Assembly (NCBI GenBank): GCA_023954685.1
Contig: JAGSHF010000009.1
Location: forward strand, 1 to 34,596
Length of the DNA stretch: 34,596 nt
Direction: 5' to 3'
Source of the DNA: Flavobacteriaceae bacterium
GTDB lineage: Bacteria > Bacteroidota > Bacteroidia > Flavobacteriales > Flavobacteriaceae
Part shown: piece by piece, positions 28,406 through 32,990 of the stretch
How the letters are laid out: each line of letters starts with the position of its first letter
How positions within the stretch are numbered: position 1 is the first letter of the stretch
Position numbers and translations under genes: made by a program
The notes under the pieces: generated by a model
Told to the model about the DNA's origin: nothing
The model's input: the letters and a program-made list of their open reading frames with translations, nothing else
The model's database searches: none

Positions 28406-29461
28406 TTAAACATCATCATAATCAACAATAATATTAGGAGTTGTTGGTTGCGCCTGGCATGTTAAAATTAGACCGTCTGCAATTTCGCCTTCAGTTAGAA
28501 TATTATTTTGACGCATGATAGCCGCTCCTTCTTTAATTTTAGCAATACAACTGCTACAAATTCCTCCTTGACAAGAATATGGAGCATCTACATCCTCATC
28601 TAACGCAGCTTCAAGTATGGTTTGCTTTTGAGACATTTCAAAAGACACTTCTTCATCATCAACAATAATTGTAATTTTTGATTTCCCTTGTGCTATTACA
28701 TCTTTTTCAATCGCAGTAGGCTTGGCAGCTTTAAACAATTCAAAATGAATTGCAGAATCATCAATATCATGCTCTGTTAATACATCTTTAACGGTGTGTA
28801 TCATAGCTTCTGGTCCACATAGATAAAAGGCATCAACTTCAACGTGCTTGTGTTTGTTTTTCATTACGAAATTCACGGTGCTCTTTTCAATGCGACCAAA
28901 AATCGCATCTCCTTCTTGAGTTTGACTGAATACAAACTGAATAATAAATCGATCATTGTGTTTATGTTGAAGTTCTAACAATTCGTTCAAGAACATCGTG
29001 TCTTGCGTAGATTTATTGCCATAAACCAAAATTACTTTACTATAAACTTCTTCTTCAAGTGCACATTTAATAATACTAAGCACTGGTGTTATTCCGCTGC
29101 CTGCGGCAAAGGCGGCAATGTTTTTAGTTTTTTTATCATTTGGTTCAAAAACGAAACGCCCATTTGGCGTTCCAACTTCTAGCTCATCTCCAATTTGAAG
29201 TATATTGTTTGCATAAGCAGAAAACGTACCATCATTAACCTCTTTAACAGCCACCTTTAACTCTCCGCTTTTTGGTGATGAACATAAGGAATAGTCACGT
29301 CTAATTTCAACACCTTTAATGATAGTTTTTAAGGTAACGTATTGTCCAGCTTTAAAGGTAAAAGTATCTTTTAGAGCTTCAGGTATATTGAAACTAATGC
29401 TAACACTGGCTTTAGTTTCTCTATGGATGTTTTTTATAGATAATTTATGGAATTGTGACAT
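28406..29461 (-). CDS. PaaE-like FAD/NAD(P)H reductase with C-terminal 2Fe-2S domain
   Basis: 351 residues in three parts: FAD-binding barrel with RDYSLCS (55-61), NAD(P)-binding domain with GSGITP (121-126) and CGPEAM (215-220), then a plant-type ferredoxin domain whose cluster ligands are Cys297, Cys302, Cys305 and Cys335. It passes electrons from NAD(P)H to a partner oxygenase, hydroxylase or other acceptor. The order matches PaaE, the reductase of phenylacetyl-CoA epoxidase, but no paaABCD genes are here, so the partner is unknown. The gene is monocistronic as far as seen and divergent from padR. Confidence 0.9.
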   Translation of the reverse strand: MSQFHKLSIKNIHRETKASVSISFNIPEALKDTFTFKAGQYVTLKTIIKGVEIRRDYSLCSSPKSGELKVAVKEVNDGTFSAYANNILQIGDELEVGTPNGRFVFEPNDKKTKNIAAFAAGSGITPVLSIIKCALEEEVYSKVILVYGNKSTQDTMFLNELLELQHKHNDRFIIQFVFSQTQEGDAIFGRIEKSTVNFVMKNKHKHVEVDAFYLCGPEAMIHTVKDVLTEHDIDDSAIHFELFKAAKPTAIEKDVIAQGKSKITIIVDDEEVSFEMSQKQTILEAALDEDVDAPYSCQGGICSSCIAKIKEGAAIMRQNNILTEGEIADGLILTCQAQPTTPNIIVDYDDV

Positions 29462-29485: not shown

Positions 29486-29539
29486 GCGAAGCCTACAAAC
29501 AATAAGTGTAGTTTTTAAGAAAAAATAATACATAACAGT

Positions 29540-29566
29540 TATATGCATAAGTATTTTATGCATATA
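29540..29566. promoter_or_regulatory. Probable PadR operator: perfect 11-bp inverted repeat
   Basis: TATATGCATAA (29540-29550), spacer GTATT, TTATGCATATA (29556-29566): 11-bp arms with no mismatch. It lies 8 bases before the padR start codon. Its right arm overlaps the -7 box at 29563-29570, so a bound dimer would block the polymerase. PadR proteins are known to bind AT-rich palindromes in their own promoters, so autorepression is the likely use. Confidence 0.75.
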
Positions 29567-29570
29567 TTTG
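29563..29570 (+). promoter_or_regulatory. padR operon promoter (-7 box)
   Basis: TATATTTG, an exact TAnnTTTG match, ends 4 bases before the ATG at 29575. The start of transcription would fall at or next to the start codon, so the mRNA would be leaderless or nearly so. No TTTG is seen at the -33 position, which is occupied by the left arm of the inverted repeat. Confidence 0.65.
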
Positions 29571-29574
29571 ATTC

Positions 29575-29913
29575 ATGGCGAACTCAAAACTTTATAAAGG
29601 AAGTTTAACAACAATCATTTTGAAACTCTTGAATGATAATCAAAAAATGTATGGTTATGAAATTACGCAAAAAGTAAAAGCACTTACAAATGGAGAGCTT
29701 AACATTACGGAAGGTGCTTTATATCCATCATTGCATAAGCTTGAGGCAGAGGGCTTATTAGATGTTGAAGTAACAAAAGTGGATAATAGACTGCGGAAGT
29801 ATTATAAATTAACAGAAAAAGGAACTAAAGAAACTTCTAATAAGTTAAATGAATTACAGGCGTATATCAAAACCATTCAAGCCTTGGTAAATTCTAACTT
29901 TAGTTTAGAATAA
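29575..29913 (+). CDS. PadR family transcriptional regulator
   Basis: 112-residue PadR winged-helix protein of the small (subfamily 2) type: helix-turn-helix from about 10-70 with MYGYEITQKV and ITEGALYPSLHKLEAEGLL, then a charged wing (DNRLRKYYKLTEKG) and one long C-terminal helix for dimerisation. It probably represses its own operon through the inverted repeat at 29540-29566. Many PadR repressors of this type respond to small hydrophobic compounds and control ABC transporters, as the genes downstream suggest; the ligand is unknown. Its stop overlaps the next start (TAATG). Confidence 0.94.
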   Translation: MANSKLYKGSLTTIILKLLNDNQKMYGYEITQKVKALTNGELNITEGALYPSLHKLEAEGLLDVEVTKVDNRLRKYYKLTEKGTKETSNKLNELQAYIKTIQALVNSNFSLE

Positions 29914-30614
29914 TGAAGAAGCTCACCAAAAACCAAATGGATCAATTATACATTTTTACAAGACAGCATTTTGTAGAATGGTATGATGTGCAAATTGAAT
30001 TAGTTGATCATTTAGCAAATGGGATTGAAGAACAATGGGAAACTCAACCTAATTTAAATTTTGAAACTGCACTAAAGATTGAATTCAAAAAGTTTGGCGT
30101 GTTTGGGTTCTCAGAACTAGTTGAACAAAAAACTAATGCACTGGATAAATATTATCGAAAAGAAATATTTATGCATTTTAAAGCGTATTTAGGTTTGCCA
30201 AAATTAATAATTACACTTTTTAGTATTTGGATAATTTATTTGCTATTGATAAGTGTAGATAATAAAACATTTGTGACCATTCCGTTTGTTGGTTCGGCCT
30301 TGATTGTACATTTTTTGTTCTTATTTAAACAACAAAGGGAAATGAAAATAAGATATAAAACCACCGGTAAAAAGTGGCTGTTTGAGCAATCTATGATTCA
30401 GTTTGGCGGTTTGATTCATCTTCTAAATTTGGCCATTTATTTTCCAATTATTATTGATTCGAATAAACAATGGACATCAACCTCAACTTTGGTATTATCG
30501 TGCTGCCTTGTTATTTATGTTCTTCTTTTATACATTGCCATTTCGGTAGTAATGCCAAGCGTAAAAGAGAGCGCTATAAAACAGTATTCAGAATATAGAC
30601 TAATCAAGGTGTAA
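29913..30614 (+). CDS. PadR-associated membrane protein (HAAS-like N-terminus, four TM)
   Basis: 233 residues. A soluble helical N-terminus (about 1-75) carries VQIELVDHLANGIEEQW and a second helix ending in FGFSELVEQK. Four hydrophobic helices follow, about 96-116, 121-139, 160-180 and 191-213. The N-terminus resembles the alpha-helical HAAS/DUF1700-type domain often encoded next to PadR genes and thought to sense or transmit signals; this match is by eye and not certain. It overlaps padR by one base, so the two are translationally coupled. Confidence 0.65.
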   Translation: MKKLTKNQMDQLYIFTRQHFVEWYDVQIELVDHLANGIEEQWETQPNLNFETALKIEFKKFGVFGFSELVEQKTNALDKYYRKEIFMHFKAYLGLPKLIITLFSIWIIYLLLISVDNKTFVTIPFVGSALIVHFLFLFKQQREMKIRYKTTGKKWLFEQSMIQFGGLIHLLNLAIYFPIIIDSNKQWTSTSTLVLSCCLVIYVLLLYIAISVVMPSVKESAIKQYSEYRLIKV

Positions 30615-30663: not shown

Positions 30664-32142
30664 ATGATAAAACTATTTTTAAGCTTAGAATGGAAATCCT
30701 TTTTAAGGTCTGCAAGTTTCGGAAAAAGTCTCGCCATTAAAATACTAATGGGCTTTTTTGCACTTTATTTTATTGGAATGTTCCTCTTTATAGGATTTTT
30801 TATGGATAAAATCTTAAAACAGGTATTTCCAGATATTGATCCTCTCGTCGCGTTTAATGGCCTTTTGTTTTTTTGGATAATAGGAGATTTACTTATCCGT
30901 TTTTTCTTTCAAAAACTACCGGTAATGACGGTGAAGCCTTTATTAACATTGCCTGTAAAAAGAAAAGCTGTAGTCAATTATGTTTTAGGTAAATCTGCGG
31001 TTTCATTTATTAATTTTTTACCCTTATTTGCAGCCGTACCTTTCGGAATTAAACTAATATCTAGTGGATATAATACGTCAACAGTTTTAATCTGGATTTT
31101 AGTCATAATTATTATCACACTAATAAATAATTTCTTAAATTTTATTATAGAAAGTTTATCTGCAAAGACGGAACTTTCCTTTTTACCTATTATAGTCTTT
31201 GTAGGATCTCTATTCGCTCTAAATCATTTTAATATTATTAATGTTTCTGAAGCACTTTCAAAAGGTGTTACTTCAATTTTAGAAAACCCAATATTTATAC
31301 TAATACCTATTTTAATATTAGTTGGATTATACATTTATAATTTTAAAATTTTACGAGATAAGCTGTTTTTGGACAGCGGATTAAAGACTAAAATTAAAGA
31401 AGTAAACGCATCTAACCTTGATTGGACAAAGAATTTTGGAGATATAGCGCCTTTTCTGCAATTAGATTTAAAACTCATTTGGCGAAATAAACGAACGAAG
31501 TCATCAGCTTTTATGGTCTTAATTGGCTTATTTTATGGCTTGTTTTTTTACCCTCAACCCATTTATCAAGATATGCCTTGGTTCTTTTTGTTTATTGGCG
31601 TGTTTTCAACAGGGATATTTTTAATAAACTTTGGACAATTCATTCCTGCTTGGGACAGTGGTTATTATAAGTTATTAATGAGTCAAAACATAAAATATGA
31701 GCAATACTTAAAATCAAAATTCACATTAATGGCAGTTAGTGTTGTTATATTGTTTGTTTTGGGGATTCCGTATGTGTTTTTTGGATGGAAAATTTTACTC
31801 GCACATTTCGCGGCGGCCATTTATAATGTAGGTGTTAATACTCATGTCATTTTATGGGGAGGGTCTTTTAATAGAAAGAAAATTGATTTAAACAAAAAAG
31901 CAGCTTTCAATTATCAAGGGACAGGTGCAGTACAATGGTTAATTGGTATTCCTTTGTTAATATTACCTTTAGGTTTATTTGCGTTGTTTTACTTTTTAAT
32001 TGGTTTTGAATGGGCCTGTTTAATACTTGCGCTTTTCGGGGTGATTGGAATTGTATTTCATCAAAGCTTCATGAAATATATTACAGCTAAATATTTAAAA
32101 TCAAAATATAAAATGGTCAACGCGTTTGATCAAGATAACTAA
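30664..32142 (+). CDS. DUF5687 ABC-type permease
   Basis: 492-residue polytopic inner-membrane protein with about twelve hydrophobic helices in two halves, separated by a soluble stretch around 235-270. The start MIKLFLSLEWKSFLRS and LLTLPVKRKAVVNYVLGKS (about 92-110) match what I know of DUF5687. The family is the membrane partner of an ABC ATPase, which is encoded 11 bases downstream. The substrate is unknown; there is no periplasmic binding protein, so export is more likely than import. Confidence 0.85.
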   Translation: MIKLFLSLEWKSFLRSASFGKSLAIKILMGFFALYFIGMFLFIGFFMDKILKQVFPDIDPLVAFNGLLFFWIIGDLLIRFFFQKLPVMTVKPLLTLPVKRKAVVNYVLGKSAVSFINFLPLFAAVPFGIKLISSGYNTSTVLIWILVIIIITLINNFLNFIIESLSAKTELSFLPIIVFVGSLFALNHFNIINVSEALSKGVTSILENPIFILIPILILVGLYIYNFKILRDKLFLDSGLKTKIKEVNASNLDWTKNFGDIAPFLQLDLKLIWRNKRTKSSAFMVLIGLFYGLFFYPQPIYQDMPWFFLFIGVFSTGIFLINFGQFIPAWDSGYYKLLMSQNIKYEQYLKSKFTLMAVSVVILFVLGIPYVFFGWKILLAHFAAAIYNVGVNTHVILWGGSFNRKKIDLNKKAAFNYQGTGAVQWLIGIPLLILPLGLFALFYFLIGFEWACLILALFGVIGIVFHQSFMKYITAKYLKSKYKMVNAFDQDN

Positions 32143-32153
32143 TAGAAAACATT

Positions 32154-32855
32154 ATGATTACAACATCAAACCTATCAAAAAAATACAGTGGCAATCTTGT
32201 ATTAAATATAGAAAATTTAGATATTCCTAAAGGTCAAAGTTTTGGATTAGTTGGAAATAATGGAGCTGGCAAGACAACATATTTTAGTCTGCTCTTAGAT
32301 TTAATTCAACCGAGTTCGGGGCAAATAGAAAATAATGGTATTCTGGTTCATGAAAGTGAAGACTGGAAACCATTTACTTCGGCTTTTATTGATGAAAGTT
32401 TTTTAATTGGCTACTTAACTGCTGAGGAATACTTTTATTTTATTGGAGAGTTAAGAGGACAGAATAAAGCCGATGTTGATACTTTAGTATCTCAGTTTGA
32501 GGACTTTTTTCATGGTGAAATTGTTGGTCAAAAGAAATATTTAAGAGATCTCAGTAAAGGAAATCAAAAGAAGGCTGGGATTGTTGCCGCTTTAATAGGA
32601 AACCCGGAGGTCATTATTTTAGACGAACCTTTTGCCAATCTAGATCCTACAACTCAAATTAGATTAAAGCAAATCATAAAAAACCTTGCTGAACAGCAAG
32701 GTGTGACAGTATTGGTCTCAAGTCATGACCTAATGCATGTTACTGATGTTTGTGAGCGAATTGTCGTTTTAGAAAAAGGTGAAATAATTAAAGATTTAGC
32801 CACAAGCGATGCAACCTTAAAAGAATTGGAAGCACATTTTGCACAAACCGCTTAG
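32154..32855 (+). CDS. ABC transporter ATP-binding protein
   Basis: 233-residue ABC ATPase. Walker A GNNGAGKTT is at 34-42, a degenerate signature LSKGNQKK at 133-140 (in place of LSGGQ), Walker B VIILDEP at 153-159, D-loop NLD at 162-164, and the switch His191 in SSHD. It is the last gene of the padR operon and pairs with the DUF5687 permease. A strong hairpin follows its stop by about 42 bases. Confidence 0.93.
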   Translation: MITTSNLSKKYSGNLVLNIENLDIPKGQSFGLVGNNGAGKTTYFSLLLDLIQPSSGQIENNGILVHESEDWKPFTSAFIDESFLIGYLTAEEYFYFIGELRGQNKADVDTLVSQFEDFFHGEIVGQKKYLRDLSKGNQKKAGIVAALIGNPEVIILDEPFANLDPTTQIRLKQIIKNLAEQQGVTVLVSSHDLMHVTDVCERIVVLEKGEIIKDLATSDATLKELEAHFAQTA

Positions 32856-32975: not shown

Positions 32976-32990
32976 TGCATAATATATGCA
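32976..32990. other. Short inverted repeat in the SprE-like leader
   Basis: TGCAT-AATAT-ATGCA, 5-bp arms with a 5-base spacer, just after the candidate -7 box. It shares the ATGCAT core and 5-base AT spacer with the padR operator but has much shorter arms, so chance is possible. Confidence 0.25.

Follow-up and report, generated by a model that had tools for sequence, protein, structure and literature searches.

Described PadR systems and leaderless repressor genes

The PadR-type regulator LmrR of Lactococcus lactis, which is encoded beside an ABC transporter, represses itself and LmrCD, and two of its dimers bind each lmrCD operator (PMC5428041). The canonical PadR consensus is given in the same paper as ATGT-N8-ACAT. 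The AphA site is of another type, TATGCA. In Listeria, LltR, LftR and LstR are autorepressing PadR proteins, and the gene after LltR encodes a DUF1700 membrane protein (PMC6624303). The HAAS domain has been described as a helical domain which relays membrane signals to PadR (PMC11237479). Repressor genes transcribed without a leader are also known. In the acuR-acuI-dddL operon of Rhodobacter sphaeroides, the first gene encodes the autorepressor AcuR and the mRNA begins at its AUG; mutations in the acuR operator lead to constitutive expression, and AcuR is translated less than the downstream genes (PMC3017554). Phage lambda cI and tetR of Tn1721, cited in the same paper, have leaderless repressor mRNAs as well (PMC3017554). 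Bacteroidota are without Shine-Dalgarno sites (PMC6847099), and a limited literature search found no description of a PadR operator in this phylum.

We analysed a window of 34,596 nt from a member of the Flavobacteriaceae (contig JAGSHF010000009.1), in which an inverted repeat lies directly ahead of a padR gene. The features of this locus are as follows.

28406..29461, minus strand: divergent PaaE-like ferredoxin reductase (TIGR02160, 338.6 bits, below the cut-off of 420.8)
29528..29548, plus strand: upstream operator copy op1, ATACATAA-CAGTT-ATATGCAT, with one mismatch to ATRCMTAA-N5-TTAKGYAT, overlapping op2 by six bases
29540..29566, plus strand: perfect 11-5-11 palindrome, read from the sequence
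29543..29563, plus strand: downstream operator copy op2, ATGCATAA-GTATT-TTATGCAT, exact, the core of the palindrome (at most one mismatch in 75 of 80 loci)
29563..29570, plus strand: -7 promoter element TATATTTG (TAHHTTTG), whose TATA is common to the right arm
29575..29575, plus strand: predicted transcription start, the first base of the ATG (leader length 0), if the 4-5 nt between box and start in F. johnsoniae apply here
29575..29913, plus strand: padR, PadR-family winged-helix regulator of 112 aa (PF03551, E 1e-21, 77.1 bits against a cut-off of 27)
29913..30614, plus strand: membrane protein of 233 aa with an N-terminal four-helix "DH" domain (about residues 1-92); its ATG overlaps the padR stop (TAATG), and its membrane character is read from model and sequence
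30664..32142, plus strand: DUF5687 membrane protein (PF18940, E 6e-188), probably an ABC permease, as suggested by the adjacent ATPase
32154..32855, plus strand: ABC transporter ATPase (PF00005, E 9e-22)

The locus resembles LmrR/LmrCD in that a PadR-type repressor adjoins an ABC transporter, and two dimers sharing one site, as proposed here, are known from LmrR (PMC5428041). It differs from LmrR, which has the motif ATGT-N8/10-ACAT and separate lmrR and lmrCD operators; the part of PMC5428041 used here describes no DH membrane gene. PadR proteins that repress themselves and are encoded beside a membrane partner have a precedent in Listeria (PMC6624303), but the LltR/HAAS-PadR dyad is different, since HAAS/DUF1700 was not detected here by Pfam or profile comparison. 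AcuR is a precedent for the logic proposed for padR, with an autorepressor gene in first place, an mRNA starting at its AUG and an under-translated repressor; however, AcuR belongs to the TetR family, responds to acrylate as inducer and has Shine-Dalgarno sites on its downstream genes (PMC3017554). Lambda cI and Tn1721 tetR have the kind of leaderless repressor message that is predicted for padR, but belong to other protein families and hosts.

The probable operator and its link to padR

The first-pass annotation had described a perfect palindrome of PadR type with 11-bp arms, sharing four bases with a -7 box and followed closely by the ATG, all within 29540-29577. The geometry was borne out. 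The arms match without error (TATATGCATAA-GTATT-TTATGCATATA), the right arm has the TATA at 29563-29566 in common with the box, and the box is followed by ATTC and then by ATG, with A as the fifth base past the box (four intervening bases). Palindrome, -7 box and padR start codon are indeed combined in this 38-base stretch, but the operator is longer: with the overlapping copy that begins at 29528, the whole double site covers 29528-29563 (36 bp), or out to 29570 with the box, and the reported palindrome is half of it.

In the window this is the sole perfect inverted repeat with 11-bp arms and a spacer of 0-10 nt. Among 20 dinucleotide shuffles of the window the mean was 0.2 such repeats, and four shuffles had one; thus the palindrome alone was not beyond chance, and it required independent support. 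That it is a chance feature of AT-rich DNA, for which this expectation speaks, is nevertheless hardly credible, because the site is conserved upstream of padR both in relatives and in loci across the class. At the level of sequence, it is this conservation and not the palindrome itself that establishes the site as real.

We fetched 80 relatives of the PadR protein, mostly Flavobacteriaceae by record title, and took the best match in up to 500 nt upstream of the padR start in 80 loci (79 relatives and the window; an 81st locus, L074, was dropped with just 20 nt upstream). The motif ATRCMTAA-N5-TTAKGYAT was found in all 80 loci, in 75 with at most one mismatch and in five with two. Many relatives carry the longer form ATACMTAA-N5-TTATGCATAA-N5-TTATGTAT, which is two operators sharing the central TTATGCATAA, with dyads 15 bp apart; of the 75 loci with no more than one mismatch in op2, 61 also have op1 with at most two. 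The label "PadR-type" is right for the gene and for the position of the site, which lies beside padR in the genomes examined, but the motif is unlike the canonical ATGT-N8-ACAT, which is absent here (no ATGT within 29520-29575). One contig, labelled as a Sphingobacterium thalpophilum MAG (L080), carries the operon genes with a Flavobacterium-like operator and is possibly mis-binned. In the window itself, a short palindrome with related letters and a different spacer, TGCATA-ATA-TATGCA, lies at 32976-32990, upstream of an open frame that leaves the window end.

The site is tied to padR. In 60 genomes of the family, evenly drawn and not selected by PadR, a pattern search gave 17 exact sites in 14 genomes against two for the reversed pattern, and each of the 17 sits upstream of a padR gene. 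By protein search (E 1e-20), PadR was present in 16 of the 60 genomes; all 16 have the site (14 exact, two with one mismatch), and an exact site occurs in none of the 44 padR-free genomes. Two diverged second PadR copies (L201 and L202, 46-50% identity) have 4-mismatch sites at best. One genome of the draw (G009, L200) has a further palindrome, ACCTAA-GATTC-TTAGGT, immediately next to the start codon of padR.

A genome scan for further copies that would define a regulon had been proposed as a check, and a wider regulon is not visible. In the own genome, a first scan gave 11 places against five for the reversed control, with nothing clear beyond padR; with at most two mismatches there were 31 places against 39 for the control, and no further site stands out. 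Loci L002-L004, L105-L107 and L109-L113 contained no homologue of the five operon-region proteins, and not every one of the 31 matches became a locus. The regulon is therefore most likely one operon, as read from the restriction to padR in the family draw and the lack of a further site in the own genome, where a site could be missed because this genome is 80% complete. The second PadR of this genome (contig C206, 34% identity) has no such site upstream by eye. As a separate observation, this different padR gene (L086, L116) adjoins a frame with a weak HAAS match (21.4 bits, below cut-off), as in the published HAAS-PadR dyad.

The pairing extends beyond the family. A draw of 197 genomes of the class, among them two from the same family as the window and one from the same order, gave a PadR match (E 1e-12) in 56 genomes, own included. 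Outside the own genome there were 57 matches, and 56 loci were read, a copy with two internal stops (G212) being left out. Much the same padR layout recurs in these distant bacteria: the site was found with at most one mismatch within 200 nt in 40 of the 56 loci and in 0 of 1120 shuffled sequences, while the remaining 16 loci have 2-5 mismatches. Their PadR proteins are 39-75% identical to that of the window, and with the site kept over such distances the pairing of regulator and site looks old.

The same site might also regulate the PaaE-like reductase. In 75 of 80 relatives and in 12 of the 14 exact-site family genomes, padR and the reductase gene are a divergent pair, which speaks for such two-way control. 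We regard it as unlikely, because the padR-reductase gap varies from 91 to 455 nt (two loci at about 1.95 kb) and the site in most loci keeps its place at the padR box, and because the reductase is present in just two of 29 class loci with 1.5 kb flanks, most of which keep the site. The frequent divergent reductase in relatives, although the operator does not track it, is an observation in its own right; paaA/paaC-family matches occur in the own genome on another contig (C32), which bears on a possible link to phenylacetate degradation through the PaaE-like gene.

Promoter and predicted length of the padR leader

The box TATATTTG fits the -7 element TAHHTTTG, the consensus of Bacteroidota sigma-ABfr promoters (PMC6847099). 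No TTG or TTTG was found near -33, and by eye there is no TTTG anywhere in 29528-29552; the -33 element is faint in F. johnsoniae as well (PMC6847099). In the latter species many -7 elements lie 4 or 5 nt ahead of the start, at -12 to -5 (PMC6847099). If this spacing rule holds here, padR transcription probably starts on 29575, the A of the ATG. The first-pass annotation had gone further, with a transcript that must begin at or beside the start codon; the spacing agrees with the place, and "must" is to be softened to "probably".

An exact box abuts op2 (offset -3, -1 or 0 from the op2 end) in 56 of the 75 loci with a good site. Of these 56 loci, 30 have a box-to-ATG gap of 3-7 nt, 24 have one of 16-44 nt and two have one of more than 130 nt. 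With a gap of 3 nt, transcription would have to begin 3 nt past the box, whereas a gap of 6-7 nt corresponds to a leader of 1-3 nt; it is therefore safer to call the message leaderless or nearly so. Long leaders occur for example in Flavobacterium, Aquimarina and Kordia loci, so the operator does not force a leaderless message.

For comparison, 463 other ORFs in the relatives' loci were scored with the first ATG as start; orthologous neighbours are among them, and the ORFs are not independent. An exact box at a gap of 3-7 nt was found in four. In bins, there were none at gaps of 0-4 nt, four at 5-9 nt and a peak of 46 at 15-19 nt, against 0, 4 and 4 for a reversed box, a control which is not flat (22 at 10-14 nt). 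Among class padR loci, the exact box stands at a gap of 3-7 nt in 23 of 54 (two of the 56 without an ATG start were left out). In published transcriptomes, 5.5% of mRNAs are leaderless in F. psychrophilum (PMC9723704), about 3.7% of leaders are shorter than 10 nt in B. thetaiotaomicron (PMC7366714), and in F. johnsoniae 87% of the transcripts to which a probable promoter could be assigned have leaders longer than 10 nt (PMC6847099). The layout is thus generally rare, yet recurrent for padR. On a tree of the divergent reductase (66 of 81 loci, one quick method without a mixture model), the gap state changes five times over 65 labelled rows, and the window's clade (29 rows, SH-aLRT 98) holds 28 short gaps and one long.

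Of 54 class padR genes (loci L119-L174), 24 have ATGTAT as their first two codons together with a hexamer resembling the right arm (ATGTAT, ATGCAT or AGGTAT) that begins exactly 15 nt further upstream. A half-site seems to include the start codon in these loci; the pattern could also reflect conservation of the second residue.

The mRNA might instead have a normal leader from another promoter further upstream, with PadR bound to the same site and TATATTTG as mere operator sequence. The overlap of box and right arm lets the operator explain the TATA of the box, and 19 of the 75 good-site loci are without an exact abutting box. However, the operator does not reach as far as the TTTG, which is retained with the box at the three offsets given above, a box with at most one mismatch was found in 76 of the 80 loci, and the entire space to the divergent gene is just 113 nt, so we judge this reading to be quite improbable. 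The same geometry bears on the idea that the palindrome is an RNA hairpin or terminator-like element and not an operator. A perfect inverted repeat could fold if transcribed, but the palindrome lies mostly upstream of the box, so this promoter would not transcribe most of it, and in long-leader loci it is again upstream of the box; a role in RNA is very improbable.

The putative operon, the DH domain and a proposed mechanism

By tblastn, 75 of the 80 relatives have the divergent reductase, 72 have DUF5687, 70 the ATPase and 69 the membrane protein. A limited literature search met nothing on DUF5687. The number of genes of the DH-domain membrane family at a locus ranges from 1 to about 5, with 1 or 2 the commonest, and many relatives (L005-L084) have at least two. 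Solved PadR proteins were among the matches of the window PadR.

The DH-domain protein of the window has no Pfam family. Its N-terminal part is predicted to fold into four helices, followed by long helices which we read as membrane-spanning. In the family draw, a DH profile (E 1e-5) matched 31 times, in 15 of the 60 genomes, and no match starts further than 2.23 kb from a PadR match; the domain is present in 15 of the 16 padR genomes (G041 had no match) and in none of the padR-free ones. Across the class, the longest downstream ORF has an N-terminal [IL]xDHxxxxxE domain in 26 of 29 loci, while the membrane part of the gene after padR varies (GldL/GldM-like, M23 peptidase). The invariant D, H and E in the alignment of these domains (A2) are partly a result of selection, because L125, L135 and L140, whose longest downstream ORF is not of the DH type, were left out.

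The DH domain is like HAAS in idea, as a helical partner domain beside PadR, but it fails the HAAS profile tests, and a HAAS identity was rejected on sequence profiles. Pfam found no HAAS family (PF22564/DUF1700/DUF1129/DUF1048) in the window protein or in 10 class partners, none was among the best 25 of 113 families listed for 40 members, and hhalign of the DH domain against 12 HAAS sequences gave a probability of 0.5%. In one of the 10 class partners (L142), "permease prefix domain 1" matched weakly, at E 0.0013, which does not reach the cut-off. Structure comparison with the PDB gave a best Z of 6.3 and no convincing match; the matches listed did not include 2o3l, the DUF1048 entry to which PMC11237479 refers.

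We consider it likely that the element is the self-operator of padR, through which PadR would repress one operon (padR, DH gene or genes, DUF5687, ABC ATPase) from a leaderless mRNA until a signal releases it. PadR dimers would occupy two overlapping sites with an offset of 15 bp and so mask part of the -7 box together with the adjoining upstream DNA; this offset would put the two dimers on roughly opposite faces of the helix. Bound PadR would shut off the single promoter that serves padR and the other genes of this operon. Transcription would begin with the A of the padR ATG and give a padR mRNA without leader. Translation of such a message may hold the amount of PadR low in comparison with the membrane proteins encoded downstream, of which the first has its start codon in the overlap with the padR stop; the precedent for a less translated leaderless first gene, AcuR, comes from a host that uses Shine-Dalgarno sites, whereas Bacteroidota are without them. 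A membrane or drug signal, perhaps through the DH domain, would release PadR.

On a wider scale, we tentatively propose, as a possibility not quite at even chances, that PadR and a membrane-anchored DH domain form an old class-level signalling pair distinct from the HAAS-PadR dyad. It would have one self-operator with 15-bp periodicity, its repressor message would often have been kept leaderless by selection for a low ratio of repressor to sensor, and different outputs (DUF5687-ABC transporter, GldL/GldM-like modules, M23 peptidase) would be plugged in behind or fused.

The layout stands in a phylum without Shine-Dalgarno sites, where messages that are leaderless or have leaders under 10 nt are rare. 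A one-gene site which is merged with promoter and start codon, and which can be read in dozens of species, allows direct tests of the binding rule, of the start site and of what the lack of a leader does. For a membrane-stress switch, the DH domain is a ready candidate as the sensor half.
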